A stretch of DNA of 64,000 nucleotides from a virus. Position 1 is the first letter of the stretch. The number at the start of each line of letters is the position of its first letter. Below the pieces are notes generated by a model that saw nothing but the letters and a program-made list of their open reading frames with translations, ran no database searches and had not been told where the DNA came from. The stretch spans positions 1-64,000 of IMG/VR virus record IMGVR_UViG_3300037486_000582. One strand, written 5' to 3'. Below, piece after piece: positions 7,194 through 63,820 of the stretch. The translations under genes were made by a program, and so were the position numbers.

Positions 7194-9146
7194 TCAGCTC
7201 ACGTCCCGCTCTGCTCCGCCGATCAGGGAGGTGAGAACGTATGTGCTGCTGAGCTGCACGAAGCGGCCGCCGATGAAACGCAGGATTGGTCCCCACGATC
7301 CGCCAGCCGGGGAGCCGTCCTCCGTGTCCACGCCGACGTAACCCCACGTCGTTCCGCCGTCCATCGTGTACACCTCTCGGTCGACCGCCATGTTTGCGAG
7401 GACCAGCCCGTCGTCCGCGGCGGCGATGCCGTCGGCCGTGTCCGCCGTCGGCATGGCTCCGGGAGATTGGTCGGTCCAGCCGGAACCCGTCGCGGCCGCC
7501 CTCCAGACCTTGCTGCTCTCGCACCCAATCCAGAAGAACCCGCCGACTTCGTCGAAGCAGCAGCAGCGGGCGTCCGACCCGGTGAGCGTGGCGTTCAGCG
7601 TCCAGGTGGCCCCGCTGTTCACGGACCGCCAGGCCTGCCCGTTCCCGCCCGTCCTGACGGCGGCGACCAGGGTTCCGGTGTCCGGGTTCACCGCGAGGTC
7701 CACGACCTCCACCGCACCGCCGGGCGTCGTGGACGCGGCCCACGCGGTGCCGTTCGCGGAGGTGATGATCTTGCCCGCTGCTCCGCCGGCGATGAACTGC
7801 GCGCCGACCGGGTCCCAGATGAGGCTCTCAATCTGGTCGCCGGCTGCGAGCATCCCCGTCGCCGTCCGCTCCGTCAGACCGGCGAGCGTCGTTCCAGTTG
7901 CGATGTACGCCCCGAGAGCAGCCGAGACGCGCCCCGCCACGACCCAGAGGTTCAGCGTCGGGGAGTAGGCGATGGCCCGAATGCGGTCGCACGTTCCGGG
8001 CAGAGCAGCGCCCGCCTGCCACCCGGAGAGCGGACCTTCGTTCGAGTACCGAACTTCTGGCGCGCCAACCGCCTCTGCGACGGCACCCCACTGGTGCGTC
8101 GACGCCGGAGGCGCGCTCATCGCGACCGCCTGCACGTTGACCCCGGCGCCGGAGCTGACCATCGCAGACATCCGGAAGTTCGACGCCCGTGCCTTCGAAC
8201 CAACCGTTCCTGTCCGCTTCAGCATGTCGATGTCGGTGAGGAGCTGGCCGATCTGGTCATAGAGCGACCCGTTCGCGACGGTCGCGAGCCCGACGGTCTG
8301 GCCTTCGATGCCGATCTTGTCGCCGCCGCCGAGCCCGAACGTTCCGACGTCGGCGAGCTTCACGATGATCTCGTCGATGGCCTGTTCCACCGACTCCGGC
8401 ACCGTCAGCGTCGTCCCATCGTGCCACGTCGGGCTCGACGCGTACTCGACGGCGGTCGCGTTGTGCTCCTTCGTGACCGCTGCCTTGTGAGCAGCCAGGT
8501 CGGTGCCGCTCGTGGCGATGGCCGTGGCCAGTGCTTGGACCGCCGCCTCGACGGTTCCGCAGGCGACGGCCGTTCCGGAGGTCGTCTTGATGGCCCACTC
8601 GCGCCGGAGGGTGCTGATGTCCGCGTTGAAGACCTGCGTCGTACCGAAGACGAGACGCACGTCTGCCAAGAGAATCTGGCTGGCTCGGAGCGCCGGCCTC
8701 GTCGCGGTCGGGATGACCGCCTCCGCGCCTTGTACCACACGGAGGGCGAACGAGTCGGTCAACTCGTAGAAGACGGTGTTTCCGTCGCCATCCAGCCGCG
8801 GGTCCGACTGCACCTGGACGTAATCAGCGAAGATGGTCAGCCACTTCTCGTTGCCGGGTGCCGCCACCGCAGTCGGATTGCTGTTCTCGTCCACGGCGCA
8901 GTTCACGTCCTGCGTGCCGGTCCATGTGACGCGGTTCCCGTTCTGGTTGTAGATGGACGCCGGGCCACCGACGTCGACCGTCAGGTTCGGCGTCCCGGCG
9001 TTCTCCGAGACGGCCGCTCCGCTCGTGATGCCGACGACCCCGTTGTCCAGCGCCCAGTCCTTCAGGGCATCCTCGACGGCTGTGAAGGCAGCGTCCAGCT
9101 CCCCTTCGGTGACCTTCTGCCGGAAGAAGAAGTTGAAGCGGTCCAT
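7194..9146 (-). CDS. Tail fibre / receptor-binding protein with BNR-like propeller
   Basis: 650 residues; GGAGG before ATG. The N-terminal part (MDRFNFFFRQKVTEGELDAAFTAVEDAL) looks like a baseplate attachment segment. A helical linker with DIDMLKR occurs near residue 300. From about 330 to the end the protein shows repeated strands with W.S.NSGATW, ITSANGTAWAAS and YTMDGGTTWG, i.e. Asp-box/BNR-like propeller blades as in sialidases and WD-like fibre tips. It comes right after the tail protein I gene, the usual position of the fibre. No enzymatic residues were identified, so binding rather than cleavage is the safer reading. Confidence 0.7.
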   Translation of the reverse strand: MDRFNFFFRQKVTEGELDAAFTAVEDALKDWALDNGVVGITSGAAVSENAGTPNLTVDVGGPASIYNQNGNRVTWTGTQDVNCAVDENSNPTAVAAPGNEKWLTIFADYVQVQSDPRLDGDGNTVFYELTDSFALRVVQGAEAVIPTATRPALRASQILLADVRLVFGTTQVFNADISTLRREWAIKTTSGTAVACGTVEAAVQALATAIATSGTDLAAHKAAVTKEHNATAVEYASSPTWHDGTTLTVPESVEQAIDEIIVKLADVGTFGLGGGDKIGIEGQTVGLATVANGSLYDQIGQLLTDIDMLKRTGTVGSKARASNFRMSAMVSSGAGVNVQAVAMSAPPASTHQWGAVAEAVGAPEVRYSNEGPLSGWQAGAALPGTCDRIRAIAYSPTLNLWVVAGRVSAALGAYIATGTTLAGLTERTATGMLAAGDQIESLIWDPVGAQFIAGGAAGKIITSANGTAWAASTTPGGAVEVVDLAVNPDTGTLVAAVRTGGNGQAWRSVNSGATWTLNATLTGSDARCCCFDEVGGFFWIGCESSKVWRAAATGSGWTDQSPGAMPTADTADGIAAADDGLVLANMAVDREVYTMDGGTTWGYVGVDTEDGSPAGGSWGPILRFIGGRFVQLSSTYVLTSLIGGAERDVS

Positions 9147-27143: not shown

Positions 27144-29384
27144 CTACGCGCCCGCCGCCTGCAGCTCCGTCTCCAGCTCCCGGGTGTCCTGGGAGAACCG
27201 AAGGATGACGAAGTCCACGGGCTTGTTCGTGGCCAACCCGATCCGCGCGTGCAGCTTGCGCGCAAACTGCTCGCTCGGCGGGTTGATGCCGTCGCCCACG
27301 TCCACGAAGAAGGACGTCGCCGGGGTCGCGCCTCGGAACGCGCCCTGCTTGAACTGAATGAGCAGGAACGCCGTGATGGCGCGGTCCACGCGACGACGAA
27401 GCTCCGCCGTGTTGTTGGAGTGGCGCGCGAACTGGAGCCCGCCCTTCAGGGACTGCTGGATGTAGATGACGCCTCGCCGCTCGGCGACGCTCGGGAAGTT
27501 GCTGTCCCCGCGCAGCGTCTTCGTGCCGTCGATGAAGAGGGGCAGGCCGGGTCCCGTCGTGAGCGGGTTGATGCGCTTCGGGTACACGATGTCCCGCACC
27601 GCCTCCTGCTTCACGGTGTCCGTCTCGAACCCGACGACCCCGCGCAGAACTCCGCGTTCGACGCCAGCCGGCGGCTGGTAGATGCCGCCCGGGCGGCTGC
27701 CGTCGGTCCGGGCGAAGACGCCCGCGATGTGCCCGGAAGGCGGGACCACGATGCTGTCCACGTCGCCGAAGACGGGCACGCTCGGGTTGACGACCTTGAT
27801 CTGCGGCCAGTAGATGGCCGCGTACTCCGTCAGGTTGAGCAGCCCGGCCGTGACCTCGACGTAGTCGACGATCTCGTCCCTGTCCAGCCCTGCCGGCGGG
27901 TCGATGATGGCGAACGCCTGGCCGTCCCGCGTGTCCTCGCAGTACGTGACCATGGCGTTGTGGACGGCGGAGGTGGGCTGGTCCGGGATCGCGAGCAGCG
28001 CGAGGTCCAACGACTGGTCGAGCACGCGCAGCCCGGTCGGCCCGGCGCTCGACCCGATGAAGTCGTTGTCCACGAGCCCGACCAGGCCATCGTTCCCACC
28101 GACGAGGCTGGAGTACGTGCCGTTCGCCGGCCGCCGCTCGGTCGGGGTACCGCCCGCGCTCTCGTCGGTGACGGCGAGGAGCAGGCTGCCCGTGTTCACG
28201 TTGTTGAGCAACGTCTCGACGTACCGCTCTCCGGCCGTGTCCATCGTCAGGTTCGGCCAGACCTCCACGACGACCCCGGCGTCGAGGAGCTTCAGGTTGA
28301 ACTCCGACACCACGCCGCTCGTCGCCGCCGCGATGACGACCGAGAGGTCGTCCGTGTACGTGCCGTCGTACTTCCCGGTCACGGTCAGCGTGTCCTGAGC
28401 AGCCCCGCTCGTGCCCGAGTGGGTGGCGTTGTCGAGCCCGAGCTCGTCGTCCGCCGTGGACGCCGCGGTCACGGCGACGGAGAACGAAGCACCTGCCGTG
28501 TTCCGCGTGATGCGCGCCGCCCCGCCGTCGTTCGTGACGGTGACGCCGACCACCGCAGCCTCGACGATTGTCTTCACCTCGGCGACGGCCACCGCGTTGA
28601 TGTCGGCGACGTTGCCCGTGCCGGTGGCCGACAGGCCGGTGAAGCCGAGCGCCGCGCAGGCCGTCCCGCCAAACGTGTCGAGGTCGGAGTCGGTGCCGTA
28701 GGTGTCGCTCTTGATGACGACCGCTCCGGCGACCGCTGTGACCTCGACGCCCGTGCACTCCGCGTTGATGACCGCAGCGACCTCGGCTGCCGTGGCCGCC
28801 GCGATGTTGACGAACTCGGCCGTGTTGAAGATGGCCGTCCTGATCGCCCCGCTGTCGACGCGGAAGGTGAGCGCCTGTCCGTCGACCAGCGCGAACGGTT
28901 GCGTTGACGCCCCGGTCACGCTCGCCTGCGTGGCGTTGAACGTGGCGGTCAGCGGCCCGGCTCCGTCCACGGACACGAGCAACGTGTCGCCCGGCGCCAG
29001 GTCGAACGGGCCGACGACCGTTCCCAGCACGGTTCCCTGCGTCGGAGCCCCGGCCGCTGTCTGGATCGTCTCCTCGCCGGCCGCCGAGGTCTTGCTCGCT
29101 GGGGTGTTGATGTCCGTGTAGTGGACGGTCCGCACGAAGTCGAGCACCTGCCCTCCGTTCAGGTAGAACCCCTGGACGGAGTGGTAGGCATCGCCGTTGG
29201 CGATGGCGCCACCGAACACGTCGAACCACTCGTTGAAGCTCGTGCTTCGCACGCGCTCGCCGACCGGCCCGCGCTCGGTGATGCCGACCATCCCGAGGAC
29301 GTTCGTCGGGACGCCCTGAATCTGAGGAACGCGAGCTTCTTCCTCGACGATGATGACCTTGCTCGCGAGCAGCTCCTTGCTCAT
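27144..29384 (-). CDS. Tail sheath protein with large inserted beta domains
   Basis: 746 residues, GGAGG upstream. N-terminus VPTNVLGMVGITERGPVGE and C-terminal half (VERGVLRGVVGFETDTVKQEAVRDIVYPKRINPL, GLPLFIDGTKTL, RRGVIYIQQSLKGGLQFA, NNTAELRRRVDRAITAFLLIQFKQGAFRG, PPSEQFARKLHARIGLATNKPVDFVILRFSQD) are diagnostic of contractile sheath. Residues about 105-340 form an insertion with two or more beta modules; the one at about 158-252 (QPFALVDGQALTFRVDSG ... ATAAEVAAVIN ... GGTACAALGFTG) recurs in tail protein I. Typical sheaths are 350-650 residues, so the insert likely projects from the tail surface. Confidence 0.92.
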   Translation of the reverse strand: MSKELLASKVIIVEEEARVPQIQGVPTNVLGMVGITERGPVGERVRSTSFNEWFDVFGGAIANGDAYHSVQGFYLNGGQVLDFVRTVHYTDINTPASKTSAAGEETIQTAAGAPTQGTVLGTVVGPFDLAPGDTLLVSVDGAGPLTATFNATQASVTGASTQPFALVDGQALTFRVDSGAIRTAIFNTAEFVNIAAATAAEVAAVINAECTGVEVTAVAGAVVIKSDTYGTDSDLDTFGGTACAALGFTGLSATGTGNVADINAVAVAEVKTIVEAAVVGVTVTNDGGAARITRNTAGASFSVAVTAASTADDELGLDNATHSGTSGAAQDTLTVTGKYDGTYTDDLSVVIAAATSGVVSEFNLKLLDAGVVVEVWPNLTMDTAGERYVETLLNNVNTGSLLLAVTDESAGGTPTERRPANGTYSSLVGGNDGLVGLVDNDFIGSSAGPTGLRVLDQSLDLALLAIPDQPTSAVHNAMVTYCEDTRDGQAFAIIDPPAGLDRDEIVDYVEVTAGLLNLTEYAAIYWPQIKVVNPSVPVFGDVDSIVVPPSGHIAGVFARTDGSRPGGIYQPPAGVERGVLRGVVGFETDTVKQEAVRDIVYPKRINPLTTGPGLPLFIDGTKTLRGDSNFPSVAERRGVIYIQQSLKGGLQFARHSNNTAELRRRVDRAITAFLLIQFKQGAFRGATPATSFFVDVGDGINPPSEQFARKLHARIGLATNKPVDFVILRFSQDTRELETELQAAGA

Positions 29385-53837: not shown

Positions 53838-55424
53838 TCATCCGATGGCGCGAACTCCAGACGACGACGATGAAGACGCCCGCCGGCCGGTGTCGCGACG
53901 GAGTTTCCGCTCGTACATGCGCGCCGCTTCCCGCGCGATCCAGGAGGCCATGAGCCGGTCGCCGGTGTGACCTTGCGGGTCGTAGGCCAGCATGTCGTCG
54001 ATCCAGTCGGCGACGCCCCTGGCGACGCGCCGGGAACCGACTTCGCAGGGGATGAGCCACCGGGAAGCCGCCATCTCCGCGGCGAGGCTCTCGACGCCGT
54101 ACTCCGGGGACAGCTTGTTGCGGCCCGTGGTGAAAGCGCGGACGCGCATCCCAGGAGCGCGTTCCCTGACCCACTGGACGAGGAAGTCCTGAGCAGCGTT
54201 GTTCTCCACGACGACCGTCGAGCGGAAGCGTTCGTTCACCGAGACGACCCGGTCGATGATCTCCGGGCCGCTCCACCGCCCCGCCTGAACCTCCAGCACT
54301 TGGCGCATCCCATTTGGCCAGAGCAGCAGCGTGAACAAGGCGCTCTTGCCGGACCCCGGCCGTGCGCTGATCGCGAGGTCGACGCCGGTGATGGTCATGA
54401 AGCCGGCCGGCATCCCGCCCATCTCGAGCAACTCCTCCGTCAGACTCATCTCGGCGGCGAACTCGGGGTCGCGCTCCGCGATGTCTTGCAGACTGCTGTA
54501 CGTCGCGAACCCTTCGCCGAGCGCCAGGCACTGCTCGATCCACGACCGCTGGAACCGCGCGGTGCTCTCGTCGCGCGGCTGGCAGAGCATCTGACGAGAG
54601 AACTCGATCGGCCCGAGCACCTGGGTTCGGACGTGCTCGATCCGGTCCAGCGGCCACCGCTCCGGCCAGGCCAGCTTGCCGTCCTGGTCCAAGACGGGAA
54701 ACCGCATCGAGTGCCACCCCTGGCGCTCCAAGTTGTGGGCCATGTCCTTCGGGTGCCAAGCGTTCGTCAGGAGGCAGACCCACGCACCCTTCGCGAGCCG
54801 CGGGAAGGCGGAAGCGCGAATCCACTCCTCGATCTTGTCCCGCTGGTAGTTGGTGCGTGTGTTGTTCTCGGTCAGGACGTCGTCGATGATGAGCCCGTCG
54901 AGCCGCGCGCCCTGGATGGTTCCTCCCTCCGGCGAGTAGGCTTGCAGGGACGGGTCCTTGATGCCGCCCGGACGCTCCACTTCCAACGAAACGTCGGTCC
55001 AGAGCGTGCCGCGACGAAGGTCTGGGAAGACCTGGTGGAGTATCTGGTTCTCGATGATGTGCTGCTGCGCGGTGCGGATGATCTTCTTTGCCTGGCTCTG
55101 CGTCGCGGACAGAACTGCGTACCGCCGACGCTGGTCCTTCCCGAGCAGCCAGAGGACGCGGGCGATGGCGAGCTGCTGTGTCTTTCCGCTCTCGGGGAAC
55201 GCCCAGATGACCACGTTGCGGTAGCGCTCGATGGCGTAGTGCCAGGCTGCCTGGAAGGGCTTCACCTGGATGTGGTTCCCCGTCTCCTCGTCCCGGAGGA
55301 CCATCTCGCAGAACGCGGGACAGTCCCGCCGCGCCAGACGGAGCATCGCCGCCCACGCAAGCTGCGCCTGCTCACCGATACCATCCGTCGGCGCGTCGCG
55401 CGCCACGCCCGTTCCAATGCCCAT
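53838..55424 (-). CDS. Terminase large subunit
   Basis: 528 residues from ATG at 55424. An earlier ATG (55436) is embedded in the TATGCT box, and there is no Shine-Dalgarno, so a leaderless start is likely. ATPase: VVIWAFPESGKTQQLAIARVLWLLG (Walker A-like, with a Gly-Lys-Thr), DGLIIDDVLTENN (Walker B) and LLTNAWHPKDMA. Nuclease: ITGVDLAIS, STVVVENNAAQDF, then GVADWIDDMLAYDP. No small subunit was recognised nearby. The 5' end faces the plus-strand accessory promoter at 55.5 kb. Confidence 0.85.
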   Translation of the reverse strand: MGIGTGVARDAPTDGIGEQAQLAWAAMLRLARRDCPAFCEMVLRDEETGNHIQVKPFQAAWHYAIERYRNVVIWAFPESGKTQQLAIARVLWLLGKDQRRRYAVLSATQSQAKKIIRTAQQHIIENQILHQVFPDLRRGTLWTDVSLEVERPGGIKDPSLQAYSPEGGTIQGARLDGLIIDDVLTENNTRTNYQRDKIEEWIRASAFPRLAKGAWVCLLTNAWHPKDMAHNLERQGWHSMRFPVLDQDGKLAWPERWPLDRIEHVRTQVLGPIEFSRQMLCQPRDESTARFQRSWIEQCLALGEGFATYSSLQDIAERDPEFAAEMSLTEELLEMGGMPAGFMTITGVDLAISARPGSGKSALFTLLLWPNGMRQVLEVQAGRWSGPEIIDRVVSVNERFRSTVVVENNAAQDFLVQWVRERAPGMRVRAFTTGRNKLSPEYGVESLAAEMAASRWLIPCEVGSRRVARGVADWIDDMLAYDPQGHTGDRLMASWIAREAARMYERKLRRDTGRRASSSSSSGVRAIG

Positions 55425-55431
55425 CGGCCCA

Positions 55432-55441
55432 AGCATACCGC
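55432..55441 (-). promoter_or_regulatory. GCGGTATGCT box giving a leaderless terminase start
   Basis: TATGCT, 7 nt, ATG; identical 11-mer and spacing to the J gene. Divergent from the accessory promoter at 55589-55617. Confidence 0.5.
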
Positions 55442-55502: not shown

Positions 55503-55617
55503 ATAAATCGTCCGGGGGATCACACACTATAATCCACTGGCATTATTGGAGAAACACGGACGTCCTCCAGTAATCGTCCTGGGATGTCTTGCAGGATACC
55601 GCCGGGTTTCCTATAAA
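55503..55617 (+). promoter_or_regulatory. Accessory promoter copy A with two operator elements
   Basis: Distal AATCGTCC at 55506-55513, followed by GGGGGATCAC; proximal AATCGTCC at 55572-55579, 66 bp later. TTGCAG (55589-55594), 17-bp spacer forming the imperfect palindrome GGATACCGCCGGGTTTCC, TATAAA (55612-55617). GGAGG at 55625-55629 and ATG at 55637 leave a leader of about 13 nt. Two further copies occur at 61.0 and 63.7 kb. Confidence 0.8.
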
Positions 55618-55636
55618 GGGTGGTGGAGGCGACGCG

Positions 55637-56038
55637 ATGGGAAAGAAAGACGGGACGCGGGTAGCGAGAGTGGTCGACGCGGGGCACCCGTTGCACGGCC
55701 AGCGGTTCGTGGTCCAGCAGTGGAACAACGGTGCCTGGTACTGCTGGGGCCAGGTAACGTCGTTCAAGAACGGCCACCGCCGCCACGAGGGGTCCTGGCG
55801 TTTCCAGGAGGCGCAGGTCGAAGTCGTCGAGGTCGCGGACTCGGGCGTGGCGCTCTCGATGTCCCTGTTCGAGCAGTGCCGCCAAGACCTCCGCCGCCGC
55901 GGCGCGATGATCTACCGGAACACGATCGTGAAGCCGCCGCACAGCGAGCGGTTTGTGAAGATGGCGCGGGAGCTTGGAATGGCTCTCGAGTCCCTGACGA
56001 CCGATGACGAGCGAACCATAAACGAGATGCTGGAGTAG
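55637..56038 (+). CDS. Accessory protein under promoter copy A
   Basis: 133 residues, GGAGG 7 nt before ATG. Beta-rich N-terminus (VARVVDAGHPLHGQRFVVQQWNNGAWYCWGQVTSFKNG), helical C-terminus (FEQCRQDLRRRGAMIYRNTIVKPPH). No family recognised. First gene of a plus-strand pair whose second gene shares a domain with a gene under promoter copy C. Confidence 0.6.
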   Translation: MGKKDGTRVARVVDAGHPLHGQRFVVQQWNNGAWYCWGQVTSFKNGHRRHEGSWRFQEAQVEVVEVADSGVALSMSLFEQCRQDLRRRGAMIYRNTIVKPPHSERFVKMARELGMALESLTTDDERTINEMLE

Positions 56039-56047
56039 GAGACGAAC

Positions 56048-56926
56048 ATGACGAAGGCGAACGAGAACACGAAGGCGATCAAGGTCACGGCGAAGGAGCT
56101 CGCGATCCTTCAGGGCATCGTGAGGAGCGAGTTCCAAGACTTCGGGGCCGGCGGCCCCGTCGGCCAGTACGTCTGGTCATGGAGTGCGACGTCGAACGCG
56201 GGCGATGCGATCAAGAGCCAGCGCAGCGCGGGCGGTGTTGTGGCATCCCTGGTCAAGAAGGGTCTCGCGACCCAGATGGACGAAGGTCGGGACGCGTGCC
56301 TCGCGGTGACCGCGCTCGGCTTTGCCGCCTACCAGGCCAACCTCGCGGTGACCGAGCCCGCCCCGGTTGCCGAGCCCGCCCCGGTTGCCGAGCCCGCCCC
56401 GGTTGCCGAGCCCACCGCCGAGGAGCTGGACGTGATCCGCCGCGCCGTCGAGGACCTCGCCCTGGATGAGCCCGGCACGAGCCCCGTCGACGTCCCGCTG
56501 TATGCGACGATGACCAGCGCGCTCGCGGCGTCCCTGGCCACGAAGGGCTTGGCCGTCGTGACCGAGGTGCGCGCCCGGGACGCCTTCATGGCGATTACCC
56601 AGCGCGGGTACGACGCCGTCGCGGCGACGGTGCGCGTTGCCGCCGCGGTCCCCGCCGAGGAGCCGGCCCCGGTCGAGGTCAAGAGCTATGCCGAGCGCCT
56701 GGCCGCGATCCTCGGGGCCGGCTGCGCCGTGAACACGAACGGTACCCTTCGCGTCGGCGACGCCGCGCTCGCCAAGCTCGAGGAGCTTCTGCCCGGTCAC
56801 GACTACGCGACCAACTTCCCAGAGAGCGGGCTCCTGGAGACCGGGATCAAGATCAACAAGAACAGCATCACCGTCTACCCGATCCGGATCGGAACCTTCC
56901 TCGTCGCGCTCGGGGACCTCTGCTGA
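56048..56926 (+). CDS. Accessory protein: tandem winged-helix-like modules, EPAPVA repeats and AVNTNGTLRVG domain
   Basis: 292 residues, GGAGA upstream. Two copies of a winged-helix-like unit (about 14-100: KELAILQGIVRSEF ... AGGVVASLVKKGLATQMDEG.., and about 123-200: EELDVIRRAVEDLAL ... ALAASLATKGLAVVTEVR) are joined by an (EPAPVA)3 linker encoded by an 18-bp repeat. The C-terminal part (about 221-283) has RLAAILGAGCAVNTNGTLRVGDAALAKLEELLPG.., closely matching the N-terminus of the 197-residue protein at 63094. Probably nucleic-acid binding; function unknown. Confidence 0.65.
   Translation: MTKANENTKAIKVTAKELAILQGIVRSEFQDFGAGGPVGQYVWSWSATSNAGDAIKSQRSAGGVVASLVKKGLATQMDEGRDACLAVTALGFAAYQANLAVTEPAPVAEPAPVAEPAPVAEPTAEELDVIRRAVEDLALDEPGTSPVDVPLYATMTSALAASLATKGLAVVTEVRARDAFMAITQRGYDAVAATVRVAAAVPAEEPAPVEVKSYAERLAAILGAGCAVNTNGTLRVGDAALAKLEELLPGHDYATNFPESGLLETGIKINKNSITVYPIRIGTFLVALGDLC
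56354..56407 (+). repeat. 18-bp tandem repeat (x3)
   Basis: GAGCCCGCCCCGGTTGCC repeated three times exactly, followed by a partial copy, encoding EPAPVA in the accessory gene at 56048. Prone to copy-number change. Confidence 0.9.
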
Positions 56927-57031
56927 CCGGCCGCGGCGCTCCTCCCTTTCGCCTCCCAGACCACACCCAGACGCCCCGCCGCCCGACCCGGGCCGGCGTC
57001 CGTCACGCCGACCGAGATGAGCACGGCTGCC

Positions 57032-57130
57032 GCCCCCAGCGCCGAGCACGACCAACCAGGTCTAGTCGGGGTCGTCCGCCCCCAGCCTCGGAGCGACATG
57101 GCCGCACCAGGCGACCTTGGCGCTGGGGGC
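57032..57130. other. Long-loop inverted repeat in a 282-bp gap between convergent genes
   Basis: GCCCCCAGCGCC (57032-57043) and GGCGCTGGGGGC (57119-57130) are exact complements 75 nt apart, with a third GCCCCCAGC at 57079-57087. The gap 56927-57208 shows no coding signal that I recognise, and no tRNA. It could serve as a terminator pair. Confidence 0.35.
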
Positions 57131-57208
57131 CACCGCCCTAGCTCGAGCCGGCCAGTATCGCTTGGCGTGGCCAAGCTGCTCCGGTGCGGACGAGTCGCGT
57201 CGGCGGCC

Positions 57209-58228
57209 CTACTGCCACCCGAGGGCTTGGACCAGAAGGGGTGCCACGACCGCCGGCGAGTGCGCAGCCAGCGTGCGCCCCGCCCCGTCGGCGAGCACGG
57301 CCGTGTCGGAGGCAGAAGGCGGCGAGGACAGGAGCCGGGCGAGCGCCTCCGACGACCCGACCGAAAGGCAGTTGACGCCCGGGGCAAGCTCGCCACCCGG
57401 GCGCAGCCAGCCGTCGTGTACGACCAGAGCCGCGCCCGCGTCCCAGGCCTCAAAGAACGTGTACTGCGTCCCTCCGCCGTCGTCTCGGATGGTGCTCATG
57501 TCGACGACGTACTCGGCCTGCCCCGCGATGAGAAGGGGAGCGTCGGCCGTCTTCGGAAACCGCCCGCGGTAGTACCGCGCCTCCCAGCCCGGGCAAGCCT
57601 TCTCGAGCTTGTGGAAGGCGTACAGCCTGTTGACTGCGCCGTAGATGTGGCAGCGGCCGCGGTCGCCCGGCGGCAGCGCGTCGAAGGCTGGGACGACAAG
57701 GTGCGTCCCCTTGTCGAAGTCGACCCTGGACAGGGTAACCGCCCGCTCGGACCGCGGGTGCTGGCTGCTCACCGCCCGGCGGACGTAGGGGTGTGGAACG
57801 AAGGTAACCCGACTGACACCTCGGCGCCGGACGTTCTCCACGTTCGTCGGCCGGATGACCACGACGCGGCGGCGGTGCCGCTCGATGCACTCCATGAGCG
57901 GCGGGGTCATCTCGGTCGGGTCGTGGAGGATGATGTCGGCCCCGGCACGGAGCAGCGCCTCCGTTGCCTCGGCGTGCGTCCGCCAGTACGAACAGGTGAT
58001 GAGTCCCTGTCCCGCCGCCTTCAGGTCGCGGAGCATCGTGTCGAGCGACGTGGAGAAGGCACGGACGCCGTGACTCCACGGCTTGTCGCCTCGCGCGTCC
58101 CGCTTGGCGAGTCGGTAGAGCATGGGGCAGTGGCCGGTGCGCTCGAGCGCAAGGGCAAGGTGGGCCGTGTAGGACACGAAGCCGCCGAACGCCACGTCGG
58201 TCAGGTAGAACAGGGGCGCGACCGTCAC
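57209..58228 (-). CDS. Glycosyltransferase (GT4-like)
   Basis: 339 residues from GTG at 58228 (GGGGAGG 5 nt upstream). Opens with APLFYLTDVAFGGFVSYTAHLALALERTGH, a Rossmann-type first strand and helix. VTLSRVDFDKGTHLVVPAF is the GT-B R-K-G segment before the C-terminal half; later FFEAWDAGAALVVHDGWLRPGGELAPGVNCLSV gives the E-A..G..VV..D.W..PG nucleotide-sugar motif typical of GT4. Last of an operon with radical-SAM and ParB-like genes. Sugar acceptor unknown: DNA base, tRNA or host surface are all possible. Confidence 0.75.
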   Translation of the reverse strand: MTVAPLFYLTDVAFGGFVSYTAHLALALERTGHCPMLYRLAKRDARGDKPWSHGVRAFSTSLDTMLRDLKAAGQGLITCSYWRTHAEATEALLRAGADIILHDPTEMTPPLMECIERHRRRVVVIRPTNVENVRRRGVSRVTFVPHPYVRRAVSSQHPRSERAVTLSRVDFDKGTHLVVPAFDALPPGDRGRCHIYGAVNRLYAFHKLEKACPGWEARYYRGRFPKTADAPLLIAGQAEYVVDMSTIRDDGGGTQYTFFEAWDAGAALVVHDGWLRPGGELAPGVNCLSVGSSEALARLLSSPPSASDTAVLADGAGRTLAAHSPAVVAPLLVQALGWQ

Positions 58229-58239
58229 GGAACCCTCCC

Positions 58240-59511
58240 CTACGCCCGCTCGGCGTTCCAGTAGTAGATCAAGTCGCCGTTCTCGTCCTTGCCCTCCGGC
58301 CGGATGACGCCTTCGAAGTAGCGGTATGGGGAGCGCCCGCGGTTCGGATTGTTCCAGAGCCAGTGCAGGAGGTCGTACATGGACTGGTGCCAGATCTTCG
58401 ACGCGCCTTCCACCGTGCCCCAGTTGAGGACGCGGGCGCGGATGTTCTTGAGCAGCCTCAAGTCCTTCTCGAAGTCGCTCCAACGGACTGAGCCGTTTCT
58501 GCGAGCCAGGACGAGCGCCTCGGTGAACTGGCCTCGGCTGTAGTTCCAGGTCGGGGGCAACCCGCAGCAGGAGCCGTTCGCGCAGCGCTCCTTGAAGTGG
58601 GCGTCCGAGACGTAGAAGCGCAAGCCGACCTCCTTGCACAGCTCCTCCATCCGGTCGATGACGGGCCGCTTCACGTTCCGGTTGAGCCGCATGTAACCGC
58701 GCATCGCCGAGTACCGCTTGTAGAAGGCGTACAGGTCGAAGCCGGCGAGCTTCGACATCTCGTGGAAGTGGAGCCGCCCGCCCGGGCTGCGCTCCTCCAT
58801 GCAGAAGTACTCGGTGCTGAGCGCCGTCGCCCCGGCACTGGCCGCGTCACGGATGAGTTGCTCGTAGGTCGCGTCGCTGATCCCAGGGATGAAGGGGCGT
58901 AGCCGAAGGGTCACGCCACCCTTGTTCAGCTTGGCGTACTTCTCCATCGCCCGGAGGCGCTCCATTGGGCTCGGCACACCCTTCTCGACCTTCCGGGCGA
59001 GTTCCTGGTCGCCCGTGACGATCGAGATCTTCATGTTCCAGTTGTCCTGACCTCGGAAGATGTCCGTGTACCGCTCGTCGTCGAGCCACCAGGTCCCCTT
59101 CGTGCTGAAGCAGATGGGGTAGTCGAGGTCGCGCCAGAACCGGAGCAGCTCCAACCCAACGCCGTACCGCTTCTCGAACGGGCAGAACGGGTCGGACAAC
59201 CCGCCCCACTGAAGGACCTTCCGCGCCCGGATGAAGTCGGTGAAGCGATGGTCCGTGGTCGGGTCGAGCCACAGCCGCATGACCCGGTCGACGTTGACGG
59301 GGACGGCCTCGTGGCTCCAATACTTGTCCTTGCACTTCCCGACCCCGCGGGAGAACTGCGAGAAGCAGTACAGGCAGAAGTACCCGCACACGCTGTACTG
59401 GTCGAAGGTGACCGGCATCGAGCAGTCGGCGACCTCCGCGGAGCAGCGCGGCGAATCGTAGAACCGCTGAAGCCGTGCCTTCGGCCGGCCGTCACTCGTT
59501 TCCGCTGCCAT
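58240..59511 (-). CDS. Radical SAM enzyme
   Basis: 423 residues from ATG at 59511, overlapping the ParB-like gene by 20 nt. DQYSVCGYFCLYCFSQFSRG supplies CxxxCxxC for the [4Fe-4S] cluster. LQWGGLSDPFCPFEKRYGVGLELLRFW and KISIVTGDQELARKVEKGVPSPMERL follow; FYVSDAHFKERCANGSCCGLPP adds Cys residues that may bind a second cluster. The overall layout recalls SPL-like (spore photoproduct lyase-type) phage proteins. Carries ATCCCAGGGAT at 58880-58890. Forms one operon with ParB-like and glycosyltransferase genes. Confidence 0.8.
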   Translation of the reverse strand: MAAETSDGRPKARLQRFYDSPRCSAEVADCSMPVTFDQYSVCGYFCLYCFSQFSRGVGKCKDKYWSHEAVPVNVDRVMRLWLDPTTDHRFTDFIRARKVLQWGGLSDPFCPFEKRYGVGLELLRFWRDLDYPICFSTKGTWWLDDERYTDIFRGQDNWNMKISIVTGDQELARKVEKGVPSPMERLRAMEKYAKLNKGGVTLRLRPFIPGISDATYEQLIRDAASAGATALSTEYFCMEERSPGGRLHFHEMSKLAGFDLYAFYKRYSAMRGYMRLNRNVKRPVIDRMEELCKEVGLRFYVSDAHFKERCANGSCCGLPPTWNYSRGQFTEALVLARRNGSVRWSDFEKDLRLLKNIRARVLNWGTVEGASKIWHQSMYDLLHWLWNNPNRGRSPYRYFEGVIRPEGKDENGDLIYYWNAERA

Positions 59512-60253
59512 GCTGCGTCCCAGCGCCACGCCCGGCGACCTCGTCGGCCATCCGCTGAAGCTCCTGCACAGGGTAGATGATGCGGTTCGTGCGGAAGGGC
59601 ACGCCGAAGCACCTCTCCAGCCACGTCCGCTCCGCCTCGCCCTTGAAGACGATGATGAGCCGTTCGCTCTGGAGTGAGTCGTCCTCGGCATCGAGCGGCG
59701 GAAGCGGGTCCGGGCGGAGCCCGGAGTCCTGCGTCCGAGACAGCCGACCATAGTCGATGCCTCCGGGCGCGTTGGGCTGGTCGGGCACCTGGAAGGTGAC
59801 CGGGGCGAGCAACTCGTCGATGTTCAGGTCCGGGATGCGGGTGCTCTCGATGATCGCCTGGACCTCGTCCTCGCTCATCCCCATCCCGCTGAAGAACGTG
59901 GTCTCGGGGTTCCAGTCGGCATAGCGGCTGTTGAGCTGGAGCAGCTTCGCGGCTGCGTCTTGACGGTCCTTCGCCCGGACCTCGACGTAGACGATGGGCG
60001 GGATGGTCCAGCCTTCCTGCTCCAGCGACCGCAGCGCGGCACACGTCTGGTGTCCGTCGAGGATCAGCGGCGAGCCCTCCTCGTCGCGCCACACGAACTT
60101 CGGCACGAACTGGCCGTAGCTCGTGAGACTGGACTTCAGCTTGGCGAGCGCCTCCTCGTCCAGCGGCTTCTTCAGGTCGCCCTGGAAGTCGCGGAGTTCC
60201 GTGTACGGAATGGTCGGTAGGCTGTGTGGGTTGTCGATCTGCAGCGTAGGCAT
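59492..60253 (-). CDS. ParB/Srx-like protein
   Basis: 253 residues, AAGGGGAAGGA ribosome site. N-terminal IPYTELRDFQGDLKKPLDEEALAKLKSSLTSYGQFVPKFVWRDEEGSPLILDGHQTCAALRSLEQEGW is a ParB-N domain with the nucleotide-binding L-D-G-H. ParB-N domains can act as CTPase switches, nucleases or kinase-like enzymes. The C-terminal part (SERLIIVFKGEAERTWLERCFGVP) is distinct. Upstream partner of the radical-SAM gene. Confidence 0.75.
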   Translation of the reverse strand: MPTLQIDNPHSLPTIPYTELRDFQGDLKKPLDEEALAKLKSSLTSYGQFVPKFVWRDEEGSPLILDGHQTCAALRSLEQEGWTIPPIVYVEVRAKDRQDAAAKLLQLNSRYADWNPETTFFSGMGMSEDEVQAIIESTRIPDLNIDELLAPVTFQVPDQPNAPGGIDYGRLSRTQDSGLRPDPLPPLDAEDDSLQSERLIIVFKGEAERTWLERCFGVPFRTNRIIYPVQELQRMADEVAGRGAGTQHGSGNE

Positions 60254-60275
60254 GGGCTCTGTTCCTTCCCCTTAT

Positions 60276-60291
60276 CCGCCCTCGCGGGCGG
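60276..60291. other. Hairpin before ParB-like gene
   Basis: CCGCCC-TCGC-GGGCGG, 6-bp stem and 4-nt loop in the 79-bp gap 60254-60332. Minus-strand TATGAT lies near 60305. Confidence 0.35.
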
Positions 60292-60332
60292 GAACGGGGT
60301 TCATCATAGAACAGGAAGCGCGGGCGGGGAAG

Positions 60333-60596
60333 CTAGGCGGTGAAGGTCTGGAAGGAGCAGGCGGGGCGGCTGGAGTCGACGCGGAAGCCTTCCGCGCCGT
60401 ACTGCGCGCACTGCCACCACCCGGTCAGTGCCGAGTTGCGGCGAAGCGAAGCGCCGCACTGAGGGCAGCACCCAGTCGCCACGACCGTCTGAGCCTCGGC
60501 CTGGAGCCGGGCGATGTACGCGGCGTGGCACTTGTTGCAGCGAGTCGCGTACCGGCTCATCACACGTCCACAGGCACAACGATTCCTGGTTGCCAT
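60333..60596 (-). CDS. Double zinc-ribbon protein
   Basis: 87 residues, GAGG upstream. Cys pairs CACGRV, CNKC, CCPQC and CSF near the end suggest two treble-clef or ribbon units. Stop two nt before the next gene's stop region. Function unknown; likely nucleic-acid binding. Confidence 0.6.
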   Translation of the reverse strand: MATRNRCACGRVMSRYATRCNKCHAAYIARLQAEAQTVVATGCCPQCGASLRRNSALTGWWQCAQYGAEGFRVDSSRPACSFQTFTA

Positions 60597-60597
60597 C

Positions 60598-61008
60598 TCA
60601 GACCTCCTCGTCCATTCCCTGTTCGCGCTTCTGCTCGTCGGTCATCGCCGCCGCGCCGCAGGCGCAGCAGACCTCGCCGTCCCACCAGCGTTCGCAGTGC
60701 GTATCGCCCGGCCGGGCAGGGCACCGCTCCTCGGGCTCCCACGCGCTGTCCGGGTCGTCGTCCGCGGCCGCCGCCGCGTCAGCCTCGGCGGCGGTCTTCT
60801 GGGCGTGCGGCCCGTCGGCCTCGAGCGGCAGGCAGTCGGTGAAGAGGGCGAGCAGATCGCCGCTGACGACCAGGTGGCCGTCGGCGTCCACGCTCGCGTC
60901 GCGGTCCAACTCGGCAATGTCGGCGGGAGCGTCGGTGTCGCATCCGACGATCTCTGCCACGCATGCGATCTCCCTCGGGTCCGTCACGGTCAGCTCGTTT
61001 CGCGTCAT
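60598..61008 (-). CDS. Acidic accessory protein under promoter copy B
   Basis: 136 residues, GGAGG 7 nt before ATG. Asp/Glu-rich with C-terminal CPARPGDTHCERWWDGEVCCACGAAAM, a likely zinc site. First gene of the operon leading to the ParB-like, radical SAM and glycosyltransferase genes. No family recognised. Confidence 0.6.
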   Translation of the reverse strand: MTRNELTVTDPREIACVAEIVGCDTDAPADIAELDRDASVDADGHLVVSGDLLALFTDCLPLEADGPHAQKTAAEADAAAAADDDPDSAWEPEERCPARPGDTHCERWWDGEVCCACGAAAMTDEQKREQGMDEEV

Positions 61009-61026
61009 CTTCAGCCTCCACCACCC

Positions 61027-61141
61027 TTTATAGGAAACCCGCGGGTTTCCCACAACACATCCCGGGACGATTATCTGGAGGCTTGCCAGTTCGCCCTGTG
61101 TTTCCGCAGGATTATTAGGAGTGATCCCCCGGACGATTTCT
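61027..61141 (-). promoter_or_regulatory. Accessory promoter copy B with two operator elements
   Basis: Minus strand: distal AATCGTCC (61138-61131) followed by GGGGGATCAC; proximal AATCGTCC (61072-61065), 66 bp away; TTGTGG (61055-61050), 17-bp spacer containing the perfect palindrome GGAAACCCGCGGGTTTCC, TATAAA (61032-61027), then GGTGGTGGAGGC and ATG at 61008. Confidence 0.85.
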
Positions 61142-61175
61142 GGATGCGCACCGGAGCCGCGCGACGTGGAGGAAG

Positions 61176-62381
61176 TCAGACGGTGGGGAGCGGGGTCACG
61201 GCCACGTCCTCGACGATGACCGCCTGAAGCTCGCGGCGCGATCCCGCCGTGAAGCACCGCCCGTCAGACAGCGTGGCGGAGAAGGCGCCGTCGTTCAGCG
61301 CCCAGGAGCCGATGACCGCCTTCGTGGCGTCGTCGGTGACGTCTCCGTCGCGGGACAGGATGGCCCAGAACCCAGCCGGCTTCGACGACGTGCCGCGGGT
61401 CAGCTTCTCACCGTCCCGGACGTTGAGCCCGAGCAGCCGCGCCAGCGCAGCCAGCGCCGGACCGGTCACGTTCACGCTGACGACACCGGCCGTCGCGCCG
61501 GTGCCGAGCGCCCCGGCGACCGCGGCGAGCAACGCGGCGGTGTCGACCAGGCCACCCATCGGGTTCAGGATGACGACGGCGCCGTCGCGCGCCAGCTCGC
61601 CGGAGGCGTTCATGGCGGCGACGATCTGCTCGAACCCAGCCCGCTGGACCTTGGAAGCCACACCAACGAGCCGCGCGAGCTCCGAGCCCGGCCGGCCCCG
61701 GCCGTCCGCGAGAACGAGAGCCATCCTGTCGCAGACGCCTGCGCTGCGGAGGGCTGCCGCTGCAGCCGAGGCCTCGGCCGGAGCGACGCCGTTCGTCGCG
61801 GGCTCCGGCGCCTTCTTCGGCTTGGCCGCGGGCGCGGCGACGGGTTCGGCCTTCGGGGTCCGCGCCTTCCCGGTCCGGCGCTTCGCGACCGTGGCGCCCA
61901 GGGTGGCCTGGACGGCGGGCGGCTCGTCCGCCTCGAGCGCGATGGGCTGGCCGGCCTCCTCGCGCATGAACGAGAGCGCCTCGGGCGAAGGGGCGTCCGC
62001 CGCGGGCTTGCCGCACCGGATGCAGAAGCCGTCCGCGTCCCGGTTGTGGCTCTGGTCGTCGCAGAAGGCGCAGAGGTCGATGGCGGGCGGCTCGGTGGCG
62101 ACGGGCACCAGCACGCCGGCGTGCTCGGCCTTCTGTGCGGCGGTCGTGACCACGAGCGCCCAGCTCACGCGAGGGACGCGCGTCGCGCGGGCGACGAGCC
62201 CTTCGGCCTCCATCTGCTCGAGCGCGTAGCGGATGCGATGCCCGGGAACAGCTGCCATGAGCGACTCCCCGGCGGTGTGGGCCACGGTCGCGGTCGGCAT
62301 CGGGGCTTCGGCCCGGCTCAGCACGACGGCGATGGCGTTGCGGATCGCGGTGGTGTCGATCTTCTGGGTTCCCTGCGTCAT
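61176..62381 (-). CDS. Accessory DNA-binding-like protein with zinc ribbon
   Basis: 401 residues from ATG at 62381 (GGAGG 8 nt upstream). GTG codons at 62528 or 62522 are possible alternatives that would add about 49 residues, and the frame is open to there. Residues about 8-85 are winged-helix-like (AIRNAIAVVLSRAEAPMPTATVAHTAG.., IRYALEQMEAEGLVARATRV). CAFCDDQSHNRDADGFCIRCGK (about 105-125) is a zinc ribbon. A Pro/Lys linker leads to a further winged-helix-like unit and beta segments. Third gene from promoter copy C. Confidence 0.55.
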   Translation of the reverse strand: MTQGTQKIDTTAIRNAIAVVLSRAEAPMPTATVAHTAGESLMAAVPGHRIRYALEQMEAEGLVARATRVPRVSWALVVTTAAQKAEHAGVLVPVATEPPAIDLCAFCDDQSHNRDADGFCIRCGKPAADAPSPEALSFMREEAGQPIALEADEPPAVQATLGATVAKRRTGKARTPKAEPVAAPAAKPKKAPEPATNGVAPAEASAAAAALRSAGVCDRMALVLADGRGRPGSELARLVGVASKVQRAGFEQIVAAMNASGELARDGAVVILNPMGGLVDTAALLAAVAGALGTGATAGVVSVNVTGPALAALARLLGLNVRDGEKLTRGTSSKPAGFWAILSRDGDVTDDATKAVIGSWALNDGAFSATLSDGRCFTAGSRRELQAVIVEDVAVTPLPTV

Positions 62382-62524
62382 GGTCCTAGCCTCCCTCTCG
62401 CAACCGCCCGTGGCGGCCAGCTCGGCGGCGGTCCCGTCGCCGCCAGTTGCCTCATTGAGCGAAGCCGCGACCATCGCAGCCTCGTTGCTCTCGAACTCGG
62501 TCCCTGTCCCGAAGCGGCTCACGG

Positions 62525-63064
62525 TCACTTCCCCGCCCCGACGATGGCGCGGATCGCCGCGAGAATCGCGGTCGCCTGCCACTCCTCCACGTCCATGTCG
62601 ACCAGGACGGCGAGCTGGCCGGTGCCCTTCCGCGCGACCGCCCGGGCTGTCGAGGTCGCGGACGCCGTCTCGTTGATCCGCGCCGCGACCTGGAGCCCCG
62701 CCGCCTCGCGGCCGTCGCGCTCGGCCCGCCTCCGCGCCGCGGCCAGCTCGGCCCGGGCGTAGGCGCCGATCGCTTCGACGATCTTCGCGACGTTGAGCCC
62801 GGTCTTGCCCTCGGGGAACTGCCGGACGTCCCCGTGAGCGCCCAGCTTCGCGCGGACCTTGCCGTTGGGGCTGGAGTAGAGCGCCCCGCCCGAGTACTCC
62901 AGGCCGACCTCGAACGGGACGCGCTGGCCGTTCACGACCAGGTACAGTCCCTTGTCCTCGACGCTCGCCTCCGCCGCCGTGAGCGCCGCGACGATCTCGG
63001 CCCGTGCCGCCGCCGCCTTCGCCAGCCCCGCCTCGGTCCTCTGCTGCCTCGTGATGGTGTTCAT
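62525..63064 (-). CDS. Accessory protein, helical
   Basis: 179 residues, GGAGG 5 nt before ATG. Central VPFEVGLEYSGGALYSSPNGKVRAKLGAHGDVRQFPEG is beta; the rest is Ala/Arg/Glu-rich helix. Second gene under promoter copy C. No family recognised. Confidence 0.55.
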   Translation of the reverse strand: MNTITRQQRTEAGLAKAAAARAEIVAALTAAEASVEDKGLYLVVNGQRVPFEVGLEYSGGALYSSPNGKVRAKLGAHGDVRQFPEGKTGLNVAKIVEAIGAYARAELAAARRRAERDGREAAGLQVAARINETASATSTARAVARKGTGQLAVLVDMDVEEWQATAILAAIRAIVGAGK

Positions 63065-63093
63065 GGTGTCCTCCTGTTCCTCTCTTGCCTTGC

Positions 63094-63687
63094 CTACCAG
63101 CACTCCTCGGGGTCCAGCTCCGTCGTCGACTCGCCCGTGGAGCGCGGCCCGATGTAGTCGCCGTAGAAGTGATCGCCGTTGGCCGGCTTCACGGTGATGA
63201 CCGTCCGGCGGTTCCAGTACTCGCGGCGGTCCTCGATCGACACGATGATGCCGTCCTGCTCGATGTCGCTCTTGAACCCGACCAGGTCGCCGACGCCCAC
63301 GACGCGCGCCCCGCGGTCGATGATGACGGTCGGACCGGTCGAGGCGGCGGGCGTCGCCTTCGCGCCCGGGAACGCCTTCGCGGTCGTCTTCGGCGCCTTC
63401 GGAACGGAGAAGCCCGGGGCGGGCGTCTCGGAGCGGATCACGACCGGGGCGTCCTTCATGGCGAGCGCGGCGACGTAGGGGAACGAGGTCGGGTCGATGG
63501 TGACGCTGTTGGTGTTCACGCGCACGCCGACGTAGTCGGCATAGCCCGGGGCGAGCTCGGCCAGGCGCGCGAGCGCCGCGTTGCCGACCCGGAGGGTGCC
63601 GTTCGTGTTCACGGCTGTCCCGCTCGCTCCCAGGAGTTCAGCCAGAACCGCCGCCGCCTTCGCCGTCTTCTCGTTTCGCTTCGCCAT
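63094..63687 (-). CDS. Accessory protein sharing the AVNTNGTLRVG module
   Basis: 197 residues, GGAGG upstream. Residues about 14-66 read VLAELLGASGTAVNTNGTLRVGNAALARLAELAPG.., nearly the same as the C-terminus of the protein at 56048. C-terminal half has a small beta barrel (VVGVGDLVGFKSDIEQDGIIVSIEDR..RRTVITVKPANGDHF) like a SH3/Tudor fold. First gene of the promoter C operon. Function unknown. Confidence 0.6.
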   Translation of the reverse strand: MAKRNEKTAKAAAVLAELLGASGTAVNTNGTLRVGNAALARLAELAPGYADYVGVRVNTNSVTIDPTSFPYVAALAMKDAPVVIRSETPAPGFSVPKAPKTTAKAFPGAKATPAASTGPTVIIDRGARVVGVGDLVGFKSDIEQDGIIVSIEDRREYWNRRTVITVKPANGDHFYGDYIGPRSTGESTTELDPEECW

Positions 63688-63705
63688 TCTCAGCCTCCAC
63701 CACCA

Positions 63706-63820
63706 TTTATAGGAAACCCGCCGGTTTCCCGCAAGACATCCGGGGCCGATTGTTGGAACCGCCCTGGTTTCGCAAATGCTTTCGGCAACTTGTGTGGGTG
63801 ATCCCCAGGACGATTTATCG
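63706..63820 (-). promoter_or_regulatory. Accessory promoter copy C with two operator elements
   Basis: Minus strand: distal AATCGTCC (63815-63808) followed by TGGGGATCAC; proximal AATCGGCC (63751-63744), 64 bp away; TTGCGG (63734-63729), 17-bp spacer with GGAAACCGGCGGGTTTCC, TATAAA (63711-63706), GGTGGTGGAGGC, ATG at 63687. Confidence 0.85.

Follow-up and report, generated by a model that had tools for sequence, protein, structure and literature searches.

Near-identical promoters with a dyad between −35 and −10 precede accessory operons of a large environmental phage

What controls a promoter region that recurs, nearly unchanged, at 55.5, 61.0 and 63.7 kb of an environmental phage genome, and are the genes behind its copies switched together? 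The window, i.e. the whole stretch of DNA analysed, comprises bases 1–64000 of the 108,577 bp IMG/VR record IMGVR_UViG_3300037486_000582 (68.6 % G+C; hereafter G000). A sequence-only reading had pointed to these three copies and proposed that they place several operons under common control. All three were found, and a search for the operators in the rest of the genome added a fourth, so that a shared promoter set does stand before several operons. The explanation favoured here, with a probability of about 0.6, is that four sigma-70-type promoters head accessory operons which are switched together and shut off by a phage repressor acting at a dyad in the −35/−10 spacer.

Positions relative to the promoter are anchored on TATAAA, the first base of which is −12. 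Copy 1, on the plus strand, consists of a distal element (ATAAATCGTCCGGGGGATCA, 55503–55522), a proximal element (AGTAATCGTCCTGGGATGTC, 55569–55588) and the core promoter TTGCAG-17-TATAAA (55589–55617), with the spacer dyad GGATACCGCCGGGTTTCC at 55594–55611; the leader GGTGGTGGAGGC, which includes a Shine–Dalgarno sequence, follows at 55619–55630 and the ATG at 55637. Copy 2, on the minus strand, has its distal element AGAAATCGTCCGGGGGATCA at 61122–61141, its proximal element GATAATCGTCCCGGGATGTG at 61056–61075 and the core TTGTGG-17-TATAAA at 61027–61055; here the 18 bp dyad GGAAACCCGCGGGTTTCC (61033–61050) is perfect, and the leader GGTGGTGGAGGC (61014–61025) precedes an ATG at 61008. Copy 3, likewise on the minus strand, carries the distal element ATAAATCGTCCTGGGGATCA (63799–63818), a variant proximal element, AACAATCGGCCCCGGATGTC (63735–63754), the core TTGCGG-17-TATAAA (63706–63734) with the dyad GGAAACCGGCGGGTTTCC at 63712–63729, and the leader GGTGGTGGAGGC (63693–63704) before an ATG at 63687. 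The fourth copy lies beyond the window at 66507–66634 of the record, on the minus strand, and precedes an HNH endonuclease gene. Thus, a TTGyrG-17-TATAAA core with a near-palindromic spacer and the GGTGGTGGAGGC leader is present in all three copies of the window, as had been described, with the ATG 18–19 nt past TATAAA. All four copies keep the order −35, 17 bp, −10, Shine–Dalgarno sequence and ATG, in a sense that matches the next gene, and so have the hexamers 16–18 bp apart and upstream of genes that mark multi-copy sigma-70-type promoters. The −35 TTGyrG agrees with TTGACA in TTG only and is not a near-consensus (T4-type) −35 hexamer; a consensus promoter scan of 55.4–64.0 kb listed no promoter.

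Matches to the promoter elements far exceed chance expectation. Exact CGGGTTTCCTATAAA is present at the three noted sites and at the fourth site of the same record, and GGGTTTCCTATAAA, with no more than 3 mismatches allowed, was found 5 times where 0.30 matches were expected. The 42 bp core scores 67–71 bits under a matrix built from these very copies, compared with 11 for the best match in shuffled sequence. Taken by itself, the box AATCGTCC shows no excess in the window, where 39 matches with at most 1 mismatch compare with 52 expected, and only the longer 20 bp elements are therefore informative; in the element scan, strong matches to the full 20 bp elements occurred nowhere but at the four promoters. 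Mean pairwise identity across the four copies is 0.85 in the distal element (−122 to −98), 0.83 in the proximal element and spacer, and 0.95 in the −10 and leader. The corresponding values are 0.34 for the filler, 0.35 for the coding sequence and 0.30 for the upstream DNA. Conserved islands on such a near-chance background mark old copies with maintained function, not fresh duplications. Between copies 2 and 4 there is no difference over some 60 bp, from the proximal element to the Shine–Dalgarno sequence, and recombination between copies therefore probably also occurs.

Conservation in relatives, which had been named as a test of the copies, gave a divided result: the sequences are not conserved, the design is. 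Outside G000, a pattern scan of IMG/VR found the promoter sequence solely in another contig of this phage, 99.3 % identical, and megablast against known phages returned no similar DNA for the promoter. The nearest distinct sizeable relative, IMGVR_UViG_3300004481_000271 (G001; 108,941 bp), has a large terminase subunit (TerL) 68 % identical to that of G000 and is colinear with it through the structural and replication genes, matching proteins being 30–84 % identical. Genes g56–g73 of G000, including operons 1–4, have no counterpart in G001. Instead, G001 has a repeated promoter of its own in nine copies, TTGnnn-17-(T/G)ATAA(C/A), with T-tracts before it and a start-associated leader after it; these promoters head other accessory genes than those of G000, and the promoter sequences are otherwise unalike. 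Near-identical repeats at operon boundaries could also be recombination, packaging or replication sites and not promoters. However, every G000 copy presents the promoter elements in order and oriented towards the next gene, and G001 presents the same element order in other letters, which makes that explanation barely credible.

Every possible dyad axis was scanned along each of the two promoter families, with column permutations as control. In both G000 and G001 the strongest axis falls at −21.5, between the −35 and the −10. Over the four G000 copies 88 % of the eight arm pairs are complementary, a value reached by 0 of 300 permutations; over the nine G001 copies arm-pair complementarity is 65 %, which about 1 % of permutations reach. 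The dyads themselves differ, GGAAACC..GGTTTCC in G000 and GGTCcCC..GGgGACC in G001, and in several G001 copies T-A replaces C-G at one pair position with the dyad kept. The same axis in unrelated promoter sequences is the strongest argument for selection on the dyad itself and not merely on the promoter, and it looks as though the promoter design has been conserved between the two phages while operator specificity has changed. The regulator that the sequence-only reading had placed in the spacer thus gains in plausibility, as the dyad behaves like an operator.

These comparisons also bear on two rival accounts. The copies could be unregulated strong early promoters, alike through recombination and optimization for the host RNA polymerase as in T4, with the dyad a coincidence. 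Multi-copy phage early promoters with an extended consensus are well known (PMC2988021), the identity of copies 2 and 4 is as expected from recent recombination, and the repeated promoter family of another related phage, G021, has no dyad. However, the filler between the elements is fully diverged, and in two phages of unrelated promoter sequence the best axis is −21.5, exceeding most or all permutations; this account is considered unlikely. Alternatively, the dyad could be the operator of a host repressor exploited by the phage, for example in sensing host state. A host protein in this role is conceivable. However, the two related phages differ in the dyad, though their hosts may differ as well, and the bacterial genomes of the collection gave two matches, without the rest of the promoter, and none has the dyad in this promoter context; a host repressor is judged improbable. 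The dyad was also considered as a terminator or RNA element and set aside: there was no Rfam match, and the sole terminator-like match was the dyad itself, followed by TATAAA instead of a T-run.

The paired upstream boxes are less readily assigned. AATCGTCC-type boxes begin at 55506 and 55572 (plus strand), 61138 and 61072 (minus strand), and 63815 and 63751 (minus strand), the proximal box of copy 3 being AATCGGCC; each pair forms a direct repeat, with its members near −45 and −111. A separation of 64–66 bp had been noted, and the values are 66, 66 and 64 bp in copies 1–3. The spacing is thus not constant, one copy having 64 bp, and the further proposal of cooperative or looping repression is not supported: the distances amount to 6.1–6.3 helical turns and so do not keep the boxes in one phase a whole number of turns apart. 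In addition, the proximal box stands in an activator-like position beside a weak −35, and no protein was linked to it. These features raise the possibility of activator-dependent (middle-type) promoters, in which a phage activator on the AATCGTCC elements would recruit host RNA polymerase and the dyad would be secondary or part of the activator site. The agreement of the −35 with TTGACA in TTG alone, a proximal element that abuts the −35, and two 20 bp elements highly conserved and confined to the four promoters are all consistent with this. However, G001 lacks such boxes yet its spacer dyad occupies the same position, and no activator was identified for them; activator dependence is regarded as rather unlikely.

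Identification of the repressor gene, proposed with the original copies, yielded one weak candidate. Of the 136 called G000 genes, 71 match in G001, and 7 are common to G001 and no other compared phage, so that their distribution tracks the dyad. One of these seven is g119 (G000 90224–90481, 85 aa), the only one in which a fold of DNA-binding type was recognized, the fold having been examined for part of the other six. Its model has an extended segment followed by helices at 14–26 and 31–42, the order of a ribbon-helix-helix (RHH) domain, with a predicted local distance difference test score (pLDDT) of 82–87 there and a mean of 66. Weak structure matches include the RHH proteins FitA, NikA, VapB12, AtaR and ParG, and MerR proteins too. 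Upstream of g119, TTGCAG-GAAACCCACAGACGCTC-AATAAC and the leader after it (GTGGAGG) form a fifth copy, which is degenerate and has the left half-dyad but not the right. This is the fifth-best start-proximal core match in the whole record (10.3; the sixth scores −1.1); among the controls, 1 of 60 shuffles scores as high, as do 6 of 200 with a shifted gene map. The G001 orthologue is the second gene after the promoter at 7602, the 16 bp dyad of which is perfect. The putative DNA-contacting strand reads QTSLKMS in g119 and STSIKAN in the orthologue, a difference as expected if specificity has changed. Taken together, g119 is a possible, still tentative, lead for a repressor acting at the spacer dyad. 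The protein g131 (HTH_17) has a clear helix-turn-helix and was rejected as repressor, since similar proteins in G003, G004, G006 and G007 mean that it does not track the dyad. A precedent for such a repressor, taken as a lead only, is P22 Arc, a small RHH protein the operator of which is roughly symmetric, lies between the −10 and −35 of an early promoter and serves to switch that promoter off. Arc and g119 have no detectable sequence similarity, and Arc acts at a single promoter region, whereas the G000 operator recurs at four promoters.

In the favoured mechanism, TTGyrG-17-TATAAA promoters with a built-in ribosome-binding leader would start the accessory operons together, and the 18 bp dyad filling the −35/−10 spacer would be the operator of a phage repressor. 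A protein on an 18 bp dyad in that position would keep RNA polymerase off the promoter; a bound dimer or dimer pair may thus block its use. The accessory genes, probably early to judge from their position and content, would be shut off as the repressor accumulates during infection, and the repressor gene would itself be subject to a half-operator or a full operator. The AATCGTCC pair at about −45/−111 might, speculatively, bind a second regulator. Several observations pull the other way. The copy 1 dyad is imperfect (GGATACC), the right arm is missing in two G001 copies, the weak −35 would suit activation no less than repression, and at the corresponding positions G001 has nothing equivalent to the AATCGTCC elements. 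As regards g119, its Foldseek E-values are above 2, MerR chains outrank RHH chains in a second structural comparison, it gave no match to PF01402 and E = 0.15 to DUF6290, and its half-dyad promoter stands out near start codons only, not genome-wide.

Each promoter of the window heads an operon on its own strand. Operon 1 (55637–56926, plus) encodes proteins of 133 aa (55637–56038) and 292 aa (56048–56926), neither with a Pfam family above its cut-off; for the 292 aa protein no relatives were found and structure prediction gave no usable model (pLDDT 38). Operon 2 (60333–61008, minus) begins with genes for a 136 aa protein (60598–61008) and an 87 aa zinc-ribbon-like protein (60333–60596). It may continue (57209–60253, minus) into a ParB-like (59492–60253), a radical SAM (58240–59511) and a glycosyltransferase-like gene (57209–58228), the ‘modification cassette’ at 57.2–60.3 kb. 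A 79 nt gap separates the cassette from the first two genes, and as no terminator was detected in it, it is plausible that the cassette is read from the copy 2 promoter at 61.0 kb. Operon 3 (61176–63687, minus) encodes proteins of 197 aa (63094–63687), 179 aa (62525–63064) and 448 aa (61176–62522); besides the same phage, the 197 aa protein had one partial match. The products of 63094–63687 and 56048–56926 in the window, from operons 3 and 1, have the stretch VNTNGTLRVGxAALAxLxEL in common; it represents a paralogous module, as the two accessory proteins otherwise differ.

The record is that of a large, probably strictly lytic myovirus of bacteria. It has genes for a large terminase subunit (53838–55436, minus) and a contractile tail sheath (27144–29384, minus) and encodes a DNA polymerase and RecA-like, gp32-like and DnaB-like proteins; a tyrosine integrase was looked for in G000 and G001 and none was found. 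The region of the promoters has the terminase gene on one side and the replication genes on the other, and the operons that they head are therefore phage accessory operons. Outside the window, g133 (G000 105034–105564, minus; L007:1034–1564, minus) encodes a divergent sigma-70-like protein, the G001 and G004 homologues of which match sigma-factor profiles, and is by homology a probable phage sigma factor. It was discounted as reader of the repeated promoters, the hexamers of which look to be of host housekeeping type; a late role is likelier. Also outside the window, at 69552–71729 (minus), are adjacent small genes of which at least three products start MGGRGGGGGG and have long Gly/Ala tracts, so that one protein design recurs.

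The more distant relatives yielded nothing with the G000 dyad. Repeated promoter families were sought in them, and none was found in G003, G004, G007 or G008. The family without spacer dyad in G021 (140 kb, 47 % G+C) consists of TTTGCAACGTTACTTTTTATTTGCA and then a −10 such as TATGCT, at about 10.0, 12.6, 13.4, 14.0, 14.7, 20.3, 24.6, 25.6, 30.6, 131.6 and 137.5 kb. In G001, GATCT with T5–T7 lies just upstream of the promoters at 1117, 3299, 9038, 87673, 88376, 89258, 94597 and 95450, often with AGATC a few bases ahead of it; these copies may be combined terminator-promoter cassettes. A serine recombinase gene (G001 86884–87333, minus) follows one of the repeated promoters. The AATCGTCCCGGGAT element resembles GATCGCTCCCGGGATC upstream of one G001 promoter, at a different position, and is left as a curiosity.

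The closest published arrangement is that of the Cluster K mycobacteriophages TM4, Anaya and Pixie, in which many copies of a start-associated sequence (SAS) with an upstream inverted repeat (ESAS) stand directly upstream of start codons (PMC3203893). The SAS is 13 bp long with the consensus GGGATAGGAGCCC, and the ESAS comprises imperfect 17 bp inverted repeats, the spacer of which varies in length, mostly within 4–13 bp; as between G000 and G001, the inverted-repeat consensus differs between subclusters with the arrangement kept (PMC3203893). The functional role of SAS/ESAS awaits experimental verification (PMC12699233). However, the G000 leader GGGTGGTGGAGGC mismatches SAS GGGATAGGAGCCC at 8 of 13 positions, where at most 2 would be expected of a member, and G000 has one 18 bp dyad fixed at −21.5 inside the −35/−10 spacer and two direct-repeat boxes upstream. 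As defining sequences and geometry differ, the G000 promoters are not an SAS/ESAS system. T4 early promoters are likewise multi-copy and sigma-70-type, with an extended consensus, and redirect host polymerase to phage gene blocks; they are near-consensus with UP elements, and the accessible text describes no repressor dyad (PMC2988021), whereas the G000 promoters have a weak −35 and a dyad in the spacer. Cluster A operators and stoperators (L5, Bxb1) resemble the G000 dyads in that sites of one repressor are dispersed and specificity diverges between relatives, but they are 13–14 bp long, lack dyad symmetry, number 20–30 per genome and lie mostly outside promoters (PMC6550527). In G000 the sites number four, are symmetric and lie in promoters without exception, and the search for an integrase found none. 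As interpreted here, the G000 case combines multi-copy early promoters, dispersed repressor sites and diverging specificity, each of which is already known.

Many accessory genes of large environmental phages lack an explanation; a recognizable promoter-operator cassette would indicate which of these genes switch together and offers a testable route to their regulator. Operator specificity turnover has so far been studied mainly in temperate immunity systems; the same geometry with other operator letters in two relatives suggests that it extends to phages that yielded no lysogeny genes. A broader and decidedly doubtful proposal is that related lytic myoviruses share one fixed design, with the dyad at −21.5, in which the repressor and its operator would take on new specificities by co-evolution. 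If true, related phages would carry non-cross-reacting early-gene switches without lysogeny, and these switches could decide whose early programme is silenced in co-infection.

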